DNA from: Thermoplasmata archaeon
GTDB lineage: Archaea > Thermoplasmatota > Thermoplasmata > Lutacidiplasmatales > UBA184
DNA length: 64,000 nt
Direction: 5' to 3'
NCBI GenBank assembly: GCA_027314165.1
Contig: DAHVCH010000010.1
Location: forward strand, 1 to 64,000
The stretch's first letter is position 1. Each line of letters opens with the position of its first letter. Below are positions 45,345 through 49,136 of this stretch, piece after piece. Both the position numbers and the translations under genes were made by a program. The notes under the pieces are model-generated. The model searched no databases and was not told where the DNA came from. It was given only the letters and a program-made list of their open reading frames with translations.

Positions 45345-45614
45345 CTACGGGCCCGCTTCCCGCGTCCCCGCGGGTCCGGGGAGCACCGCGGTGGCCCCTT
45401 TCGTGACGAAGTAGTGCAGACGGTCGCACTGTTTCTGGAAGTACCCGCTCCCCTCCTTCGCGAACTCCGATAGGAGCGCGGGGAGCTCCTCCTCCTTCGC
45501 CGAAGCGTCGAGGACGGGAGAGAACATGCAGGGGAAGACGACCACGAGCCGCTCGTCCATGACGAGGCGCTCGGTCTCGGGGGCGCCGCAGAAGGGACAG
45601 TTCAGCTTCGGCAT
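45345..45614 (-). CDS. Small zinc-binding protein, unknown
   Basis: 89 aa from ATG 45614. It begins KLNCPFCGAPETERLVMDE, with one CxxC pair and another Cys downstream (VFPCMF, QCDRLHYF). A small zinc-ribbon-like or thiol protein; no known family recalled. It converges on the esterase gene 10 bases beyond the latter's stop. Confidence 0.55.
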   Translation of the reverse strand: MPKLNCPFCGAPETERLVMDERLVVVFPCMFSPVLDASAKEEELPALLSEFAKEGSGYFQKQCDRLHYFVTKGATAVLPGPAGTREAGP

Positions 45615-45752
45615 GGGGGCTCCGACCCGGAAGAGGGACCGGGCTTCGACACGGCTCACCCGCCGGAGCTCAAAGGGTTCGCGCCCCTCGGGAGGCCCGT
45701 GCCGCCCCGTCCCGTCACGCCCTCGGGGGGCTCGCCGGAGGACGAGGACCCT

Positions 45753-45992
45753 TCAGACGAGGCTGCCCATCTCCCAGGCCCAGCCGGGGGCCGGGTCGTC
45801 GGGGCGGATGTCCACTCGCGGGGGCGCGTGGCCGGACCCGCCGCAGTAGGTGCAGGAGCGGGTGACCTCCTCCAGTACGCTCGCGCGCTCATCGTAACGC
45901 CATCGCCGCTCCACGCCCTCTCCCCGACAGATCGGGCAGGGTGAGGTCTCCTGCGCGGGGTTCGATGCGGGCGAGCGGCCCTTGCTCTCCAT
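45753..45992 (-). CDS. Small protein with two CxxCxGxG zinc motifs
   Basis: 79 aa. CPICRGEGVERRW and CTYCGGSGHAPP are DnaJ-type zinc-finger repeats separated by 27 residues, enough for one zinc site. The rest is unremarkable. A minus-strand TTAAATAC box at 46024-46031 precedes the ATG. A chaperone-like or RNA-binding zinc finger is possible; function unknown. Confidence 0.65.
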   Translation of the reverse strand: MESKGRSPASNPAQETSPCPICRGEGVERRWRYDERASVLEEVTRSCTYCGGSGHAPPRVDIRPDDPAPGWAWEMGSLV

Positions 45993-46133: not shown

Positions 46134-47684
46134 TCAGATCCCTTCCCAACGGAAGCTGCCGGGACGCTGAGAGAAGAGGACCCCTTGTTCGGAGAGCTGG
46201 AGCAAGTGCTCCTCGAGCTCCTCGCGGTCGGACCAGAGCCCTTTCGAGCGCAGATGCGCCCACAGGTCCGCGAGCGACATGTCCCCGCCCTCCATCAACA
46301 CCGCGCGCAGGACGAAGTAGCGCGCCTGCGATCTCCTCGACCGCAGGCGCCCGCCCCTCGAGAGGAGCTCGCGTGTCGCGCGGGAGCTCCCGAGCGCCGG
46401 GTCGGAGACCGCGGCCACCAACCTGTCGGCGATCGCAAGGAGGTCGTCCGGGAGGACCGCAGCGCGACCGACGAGCTTCGCCCGTCCGGTCCCGGCTTGG
46501 ACGAGATGGTCGCGGAGCCCCCGGGCGTGGAGCAGGACGCCATCGAGGTCGGATCGCGGGAGCCCCAGCTGGGTCGGCAGGTCGGTGAGCGCCTCGCGCA
46601 CCTTCCCCAGGGCGAGGTCGAGGCACCGGTGGAGCTCCTCCGTCTCGGGCAGCTGCGGCTCGTGGAAGTGCGCCCGGACGAGATGGTCCGCCCACTCCCC
46701 CGCCGCCTCCTCGGGGACCCGGGTCATGGCGAGCTCCTGCCATCGGTCCGCCGGCTCCATGAGCGGGACGTGCGGGTCGAACAGCACCCGGTAGAGGTCG
46801 TCGCCGTCGGCCCCTCCGTAGAGGAGGTGCGAGGACTCGAAGCCGCTCCCCTTGCTCTTCACCCGGTCCCACGCGCGGGAGCCAAGGGTGTCGATCACCA
46901 CGGAGTAGGGCGCCGAGTAGGAGGGGCCGAGCGACCCCCGCGACCCTCGCGCTCCACGGCCCTTCCCTCGGGCCAGTCGGACCTGCCAGGGGGGAAGCAG
47001 CGCACGCAGCGGCGCCACCGCCGGCGAGAGCACCCCGGAGGGAACCCCCCAGCTGCCCATCACGACGTCCAGCCCTGGGGGACGTCCGTGAAACGGAGGC
47101 GCCCCGACAAAGGGCAGTAGCAGGAGCGGCGCGAGTCCCGGGTCGAGGCCCGTCGCGTCGGAGAAGCCCCGCACCGCCTCTTCCGCTTCGCGCGCGGAGA
47201 GGGTGGGCGGGGGGAAGAACTCGGACTCCGCGACCCGCTCGGGGCTCTCCGCCCAGAGGACGTCCTCGGAGAGCAGCCCGCGCTTCTCGTCCTTCCAGAC
47301 CACCACCCGTCGGCGGGGCCGGGGGACCCGGTAGCATCGGCCTTCGTGGGGCCGTTCCTCCGGGTCCTCGAGGACGATCCAGGGGCCCTCGACCGGTCGG
47401 GCCGGGAGAGGGTAGGCCCGGAACGTCGCTCGGCGGCCGACGGCGCGGAAGAGCCCGGGGGGCGCGGGCGCCTCCCGCAGGACCGCGACGAGGTCGGAAG
47501 GGACCCTCTGACCCAACGGGGTCTGCCGGTAGCTGTGGAGCCAGGAGGTCCACCTCTCCCGCAGTTCGCGCTCGTACGGCAGGTAGGTCGACCCCAGCTC
47601 CAGCAGGCTCGGGGGGTCTCCCGGGAGGACCGGGGCCCAGCCTTGCAGTCGGGGCCTCGTGAGCCCGCTCGGAAGCGCGGCCAC
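46134..47684 (-). CDS. Unknown protein; possibly a degenerate MCM-like AAA+ with a winged-helix C-terminus
   Basis: 516 aa from GTG 47684, two bases after the sat stop. No family is certain. The order recalls an MCM: a helix LSAREAEEAVRGF (about 162-174), a hydrophobic LAPLLLLPFVG (184-194), a strand then the P-loop position GSWGVPSGVLS (210-220) without Lys, a basic GKGRGARGSRG (240-250), DDLYRVLFDPHVPLMEPADRW (295-315), EWADHLVRAHF (330-340) and a final winged helix (SLADLWAHLRSKGL, then HLLQLSEQGVLFSQRPGSFR; 470-512). The conserved Walker A Lys and Walker B are missing, so it should not hydrolyse ATP. Coupling to sat argues for a role there, or merely for readthrough. Confidence 0.45.
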   Translation of the reverse strand: MAALPSGLTRPRLQGWAPVLPGDPPSLLELGSTYLPYERELRERWTSWLHSYRQTPLGQRVPSDLVAVLREAPAPPGLFRAVGRRATFRAYPLPARPVEGPWIVLEDPEERPHEGRCYRVPRPRRRVVVWKDEKRGLLSEDVLWAESPERVAESEFFPPPTLSAREAEEAVRGFSDATGLDPGLAPLLLLPFVGAPPFHGRPPGLDVVMGSWGVPSGVLSPAVAPLRALLPPWQVRLARGKGRGARGSRGSLGPSYSAPYSVVIDTLGSRAWDRVKSKGSGFESSHLLYGGADGDDLYRVLFDPHVPLMEPADRWQELAMTRVPEEAAGEWADHLVRAHFHEPQLPETEELHRCLDLALGKVREALTDLPTQLGLPRSDLDGVLLHARGLRDHLVQAGTGRAKLVGRAAVLPDDLLAIADRLVAAVSDPALGSSRATRELLSRGGRLRSRRSQARYFVLRAVLMEGGDMSLADLWAHLRSKGLWSDREELEEHLLQLSEQGVLFSQRPGSFRWEGI

Positions 47685-48917: not shown

Positions 48918-49136
48918 TCAGTCGATGTACCCCAGCGCCTTCAGGCGGTCCTTCACCCGGGCCTCGTCGCGAGCCGAGAGCGGCTCGCCGTCCTGAGCCG
49001 CGGCTTCGGTCAGGCGGGCCAGCACGAAGGCCACGAAGTCGTCGACGGAGGCGAACCCCGTGCCCTTGATCCGCGCCTGGATACGGTCCCGGAGCTCCCT
49101 GGGGATCTGGACCGGGACGGTGGTGGGCTCCGGCAT
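48918..49136 (-). CDS. Small ribbon-helix-helix-type protein
   Basis: 72 aa: VPVQIPRELRDRIQARIKGT, then FASVDDFVAFVLARLTE and the C-terminal ARVKDRLKALGYID. The beta-strand plus two-helix layout of CopG/RHH DNA-binding domains is clear. A DNA-binding or protein-pairing role is likely; target unknown. It lies on the same strand between sat and tfb, 19 bases downstream of the tfb stop. Confidence 0.65.
   Translation of the reverse strand: MPEPTTVPVQIPRELRDRIQARIKGTGFASVDDFVAFVLARLTEAAAQDGEPLSARDEARVKDRLKALGYID

Follow-up and report, generated by a model that had tools for sequence, protein, structure and literature searches.

A Walker-less protein with a predicted MCM fold in Thermoplasmata archaea: a probable ATPase-dead relative of MCM

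The MCM helicase of archaea is usually taken to be a plain homohexamer. Among the described relatives of the helicase, mkaMCM2 of Methanopyrus kandleri is catalytically inactive, with a Walker A motif that is not conserved and with natural internal deletions (PMC2933578, PMC3972481); our literature search found no description of its function. Haloarchaea have extra diverged relatives beside the core MCM; some of these outliers retain the Walker and SRF motifs, and the others amount to N-terminal fragments, about 312 aa long (PMC3972481). In eukaryotes, the MCM-like protein MCMBP, which is without Walker A, binds MCM3 and promotes assembly of the MCM2-7 hexamer (PMC9018068). Here we analyze a gene from a 64,000-nucleotide stretch of a Thermoplasmata archaeon genome (contig DAHVCH010000010.1, positions 1 to 64,000; hereafter the window) that encodes a 516-aa protein on the minus strand (window 47684..46134), which we refer to as the MCM-like protein. 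Our favored reading, to which we give a probability of roughly 0.66 as a whole, is that it is a diverged, ATPase-dead archaeal relative of MCM that acts as an accessory protein.

Orthologues of the MCM-like gene were found in 11 of 103 genomes of one Thermoplasmata family, the window's genome included, and their carriers belong to the genera g1 (the window's genus), g2 and g6. Ten orthologues, which were used for the family alignment and the motif survey, form two deeply separated clades with about 26% identity between them. We predicted structures with AlphaFold2 without templates and searched them against the PDB with Foldseek. The model of the window protein was moderate (predicted local distance difference test, pLDDT, 64; predicted template modelling score, pTM, 0.50), and that of L008, an orthologue from g6, was good (pLDDT 81, pTM 0.74). 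MCM came out on top for the window model (E=2.8e-5), with the first 23 matches all MCM and with SSB/OB chains also among its matches. For the L008 model, 50 of the 50 matches listed were MCM, from yeast, human, worm and archaea, over most of its length and with a best E-value of 1.1e-12. The two models are not fully independent, because both draw on one set of ten sequences, ordered differently. Both place an N-terminal OB fold, an AAA+ core, lid helices and a C-terminal winged helix in the predicted order of MCM domains. Judged from these predictions, the protein very probably has an MCM fold.

The predicted layout can be followed along the chain, with all features on the minus strand. A long helix followed by 5-6 strands (residues 36-160; 47205..47579) looks OB-fold-like in the AlphaFold2 model, at the place of MCM N-terminal subdomain C. 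Two pre-core helices (residues 164-193; 47106..47195) bring LLLPFVG, by alignment and in the model, onto the position of ...LQLFGG in MCM. The first core strand and helix hold an invariant HG...G.D region (residues 194-234; 46983..47105), which hhalign lays on the ..LAP stretch of MCM with D206 and P231 common to both. Within it lies GVPSGVLS (residues 213-220; 47025..47048), a degenerate P-loop position at which, by hhalign, Leu replaces the catalytic Lys; this correspondence follows the hhalign path from the g6 clade, carried to the window protein by the family alignment. A flexible loop with low pLDDT comes next (residues 234-258; 46911..46985), variable in sequence and with 5-12 K/R/H in every homologue, which makes it a candidate nucleic-acid contact. 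The presumed Walker B position, placed by strand order, falls on the core strand SSHLLYGG (residues 284-291; 46812..46835). Further on, ADHLVRAH (residues 332-339; 46668..46691) resembles the A.HIL..H motif of MCM. A helical lid (residues 349-432; 46389..46640) sets RD...Q.A...A+L on the RQLEALIRLSEASARxRLS stretch of MCM, by hhalign and in the model, and a C-terminal winged helix (residues 448-516; 46137..46343) has clear sequence-profile similarity to that of MCM by hhalign.

Throughout the family, the catalytic motifs have almost certainly been lost. The position of the P-loop lysine holds L, V, H, Y or Q, and the Walker A Lys is present in 0/10 members. The presumed Walker B strand likewise has DE in 0/10 members and instead a conserved aromatic/histidine-Gly, and the SRF arginine finger was found in 0/10. 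We took as chance a single match to the Walker B search pattern (ALADE in L009, after the presumed strand) and a single GK[ST] (residue 278 of L005, well away from the P-loop position). Cysteines number 0-2 per protein, which excludes a zinc ribbon (subdomain B). All four features of an active helicase that we surveyed (Walker A Lys, Walker B, SRF and zinc subdomain B) are thus absent. From its sequence, the protein would not be a motor, and since every ATP-burning part has been lost, a structural or regulatory helper is probable. What the family keeps is L[LY].[PA].VG, HG...[GS].D, the basic loop, H339, RD...Q.A and the winged helix. In the ADHLVRAH motif, D333 and H339 are invariant and the rest is not kept family-wide. 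The pattern A.H[IL][LV].[AS]H, picked after the motif had been seen, occurred in 603,593 aa of six-frame open reading frames (ORFs) only in the MCM-like gene and at canonical MCM loci.

These results bear out most of a preliminary description of the gene, made from the window sequence, which had proposed an ATPase-dead MCM relative of no obvious family. Fold search, motif loss and hhalign all support that proposal. The landmarks that it listed in MCM order are in place (GVPSGVLS at 213-220, the basic loop at 234-258, ADHLVRAHF at 332-340 and the winged helix at 448-516), and the catalytic Lys and Walker B that it reported missing are absent from the expected positions in all ten members (0/10). 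Of the checks that it suggested, the structure search ranked MCM first whichever clade was used, at E=2.8e-5 with the window protein and E=1.1e-12 with L008, and no homologue has the catalytic Lys of the P-loop (0/10). In the profile check, hhalign against canonical MCM scored far above a shuffle null; Pfam's MCM models remained unmatched up to E=10.

For that comparison, the reference profile was built from 12 canonical Thermoplasmata MCMs and the null from 60 column shuffles. The family scored 50.2 against canonical MCM (P=2.7e-5; null 14.7±2.0, maximum 21), with 20.4 for a reversed profile, and each clade alone scored 43-44, with nulls near 16.5. The whole-profile signal is carried by the winged helix and the lid. 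Tested singly, the winged helix scored 43.5 against a null of 13.5±1.7 and was the sole significant domain. The best local matches of the core and lid fall at the expected MCM positions with scores at noise level, as does that of residues 194-234, on MCM 328-353; no alignment against MCM was obtained in global mode. When 177,635 PDB sequences were searched with hmmsearch, an archaeal MCM ranked first (E=0.086), in a match that spans lid and winged helix and reaches both C-termini. Mevalonate kinase, antibody and three-helix-bundle matches from the PDB sequence searches (E about 1) were set aside as noise.

Several observations weigh against a kinship with MCM and an accessory role beside it. 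No Pfam model, those for MCM included, matched any of the ten members up to E=10. Core and lid, tested singly against MCM with hhalign, stayed at noise level. In plain hidden Markov model scoring, unrelated proteins outscored MCM as matches to the family profile, through their winged helices, so this domain is not specific by itself. TM-scores (template modelling) to whole MCM chains were about 0.2-0.5, with large root mean square deviations. Finally, no replication genes lie directly beside the MCM-like gene. Low TM-scores and large deviations are as expected, because the domains of a multidomain chain move relative to each other; since the superposition on whole MCM chains is loose, the fold claim rests on E-values and exclusivity. 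Sequence alone could not settle the matter, because the domains other than the winged helix are singly at noise level. Therefore, the MCM assignment rests on fold, colinearity and profile jointly, and on none of them alone.

Other libraries and wider searches yielded little. NCBIfam, PADLOC and PHROGs returned only noise for the family, and two candidates were rejected as noise: RsbA_anti_sig (E=0.036, far under the family cut-off) and AbiEi (E=0.029, a single member). When 400 genomes of the class were searched for more remote homologues, only short matches came up (G135, G143, G213, G218, G234, G273 and G060); six of these, on inspection, were winged helix-turn-helix-like stretches in other or very short frames. 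In G273, a zinc-ribbon protein (L061 650-1327, minus strand) carries at its C-terminus a winged helix similar to that of the family, with a PERYRTA end, and is possibly a small archaeal protein with this domain in common. As to a viral source, viral contigs contained no relatives of the MCM-like protein, and structure matches in BFVD include helicases, the best being an unnamed protein (1.1e-11).

The 516-aa ORF is a real protein under purifying selection. Its gene (46134..47684) runs from a GTG start at 47684 to a TGA at 46136-46134. Most frames are open in this GC-rich genome, so openness by itself proves nothing; the gene is real because its codon-use score is positive, 11 genomes carry it, and the ratio of nonsynonymous to synonymous substitution rates (dN/dS) was below 1 in 8/8 pairs tested. 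Between the window gene and its nearest relative, dN is 0.009 and dS 0.12, and the 58 differences are spread over codon positions 1/2/3 as 9/3/46. All full-length copies are free of internal stops, and the alignment of the ten sequences has 29 invariant columns.

Nearly all relatives searched, carriers of the MCM-like gene included, also have a strongly scoring MCM domain. It belongs to a separate, canonical MCM, whose P-loop is intact in examples from g1 (GDPGLAKS), g2 (GDPGVAKS) and g6 (GDPGTAKT). The window's own bin, G000, which is 85.7% complete, contained no canonical MCM; what matched there were other AAA+ proteins, and weakly. In the sister genome G001, canonical MCM lies 80 kb from the MCM-like gene on the same contig, and the gap in G000 is therefore probably due to bin incompleteness. 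Between g1 and g6, identity is 50% for canonical MCM, 67% for a neighboring protein and 29% for the MCM-like protein, so the latter has evolved fast but under constraint. As a side observation, three loci (G018:C12, G005:C32 and G027:C80) have the MCM domain in two parts about 1.1 kb apart within single frames of 1095-1180 aa, a split that probably reflects inteins close to the P-loop of MCM; in G018, another contig bears an unsplit MCM as well.

Carriers of the MCM-like gene are some soil and sediment archaea, and one carrier genome, SubAcS15-31, appears in a paper on Lutacidiplasmatales (PMC9287336). The gene occupies the same syntenic site in both clades. In g2 and g6 it is flanked on one side by a ribbon-helix-helix (RHH)-like gene and on the other by a small gene bearing a C..C pair, and GMP synthase and a succinate dehydrogenase-like operon adjoin the locus. 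In the window, the RHH-like gene (72 aa; 48918..49136, minus strand), so read from its sequence, is the upstream neighbor that stays fixed in most relatives, whether or not they have the MCM-like gene, and a zinc-ribbon-like gene of about 90 aa with a C..C pair at its start (45345..45659, minus strand) is the fixed downstream neighbor; neither has a Pfam match. A TFIIB-type gene also lies near the MCM-like gene. In g4 and g5 these neighbors occur too, without the MCM-like gene. At the site in gene-less genomes, we found either the RHH-like and zinc-ribbon-like genes directly adjacent or a gap without a recognizable MCM-like frame, and the gap in g7 held no remnant of the gene.

In a tree built on two flanking proteins, the carriers g1 and g2 group with g3 and g7 (support 1.0), and the carrier g6 groups with g4 and g5 (support 0.78, weaker), so that carriers occupy both sides of the deepest split. 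For that reason, the simplest history is ancestral presence with several losses: the gene was probably in the family ancestor at this same chromosomal site and was then lost in several genera. Spread by transfer via homologous flanks is the alternative. Between the MCM-like and zinc-ribbon-like genes we also noticed a 79-aa frame (window 45753-45992 and L046 2289-2789, both minus strand) with a DnaJ-like zinc-finger pattern, CPICRGEG...CTYCGGSG. The g7 genome G009, without the MCM-like gene, has a similar zinc-finger frame at the same place, and the frame therefore looks like a real small gene.

Upstream in the window lies sat, encoding an ATP sulfurylase (PF01747, PF14306; 47687..48832, minus strand), a neighbor in g1 only that we place outside the system. 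Its TGA is followed by two bases and then by the GTG of the MCM-like gene (TGACCGTG), exactly the spacing given in the preliminary description. The coupling to sat that it proposed holds as adjacency in the window's genus, where sat stands between the RHH-like and MCM-like genes, but it does not extend further: sat is not adjacent in the g2 and g6 carriers, and an outgroup has RHH and sat adjoining with no MCM-like gene there. This outgroup, G038 from another family of the order, has RHH-like, sat-like and alkaline-phosphatase-like genes in a row (L064 16-2782; identified by eye), so the pairing of RHH with sat probably predates the place of the MCM-like gene beside it. In other genera sat is on different contigs, and on that ground we rejected a link of the MCM-like gene to sulfate metabolism. 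The link to sat is incidental.

How might such a protein work? We infer, tentatively, that a non-catalytic accessory that binds DNA, MCM or both is the most likely function. By prediction it keeps a shortened MCM plan, with an N-terminal helix and OB fold, a reduced AAA+-like core, lid helices and a winged helix; it may contact DNA through the OB fold, the winged helix and the basic loop; and it could pair with canonical MCM subunits of the same lineage, or cap or regulate ring assembly or loading. A more specific version, drawn by analogy and in our view rather unlikely, would make it the MCMBP equivalent of archaea, dedicated to chaperoning, capping or unloading the MCM homohexamer, or else an inert subunit of the ring, in a lineage otherwise regarded as relying on MCM homohexamers only.

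The main rival, about as doubtful as this last version, is an MCM-derived DNA-binding protein that left replication and now uses its winged helix and OB fold in transcription or as a chromatin factor. Of the MCM-like parts, the winged helix is conserved best, the neighborhood is metabolic (GMP synthase, sat and the succinate dehydrogenase-like operon) with RHH-like and TFIIB-type genes nearby, and some genera are without the gene. However, the whole MCM plan has been retained, lid helices included, not the winged helix alone, and gene order is the same with and without the gene, so no regulatory partner is indicated. Less probable still is a non-specific resemblance, in which an OB fold, a core without P-loop and a winged helix came together independently and AlphaFold2 and Foldseek were drawn to MCM because it is the prevailing case of such an architecture in the PDB. 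The lack of sequence support outside the winged helix when domains are tested singly speaks for this, as do the other helicases among the viral-library matches and the fit of the winged helix to other wHTH proteins. The PDB has many structures of AAA+ initiators that carry winged helices, Orc1/Cdc6 for example, yet all 50 matches listed for L008 were MCM, the best at 1.1e-12. Moreover, OB fold, core, lid and winged helix are colinear with MCM, and A.H[IL][LV].[AS]H was common only to MCM loci among the sequences compared. A decaying, functionless pseudo-paralogue of MCM, which fast evolution (29% against 50% for canonical MCM and 67% for the neighbor, g1-g6) and repeated loss within the family might suggest, is very improbable and already disfavored by dN/dS below 1 in 8/8 pairs, the absence of internal stops and 29 invariant columns.

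The accessory MCM relative that we favor can be set against the systems described above. Canonical MCM (for example L065 and L067) has the same predicted domain order and fold, and its lid and winged helix are similar by profile, but it is about 700 aa long and has GDPG.AK[ST], DE.D, SRFD and CxxC, all of which the MCM-like family is without. The haloarchaeal outliers differ in that the MCM-like family retains the C-terminal half without the motifs. mkaMCM2 (PDB 3F8T; 459 residues in the solved chain) is likewise archaeal with MCM architecture, and 3f8t is the sixth match of the window model (E=7.3e-4). By contrast, 3f8t was absent from the sequence searches up to E=10, leaving no detectable sequence relationship, and was not among the 50 matches listed for the L008 model. 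The MCM-like family is also, unlike mkaMCM2, conserved across several genera with invariant HG...G.D and RD...Q motifs of its own. The features of an mkaMCM2-type protein (an MCM fold, a degenerate Walker A and internal deletions) are present here, which does not imply orthology to mkaMCM2. The family adds proteins that Pfam misses and for which the remaining annotation libraries give nothing above noise, and it could serve as a small, testable system for inert MCM-fold proteins acting on the ring. MCMBP, a non-catalytic member beside an active ring, is by analogy the model for the role proposed here; it is eukaryotic and is likened by description, and no sequence relationship was seen, though no search was aimed at one. 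If our reading is correct, a non-catalytic MCM partner, as MCMBP is in eukaryotes, may have arisen in archaea too.
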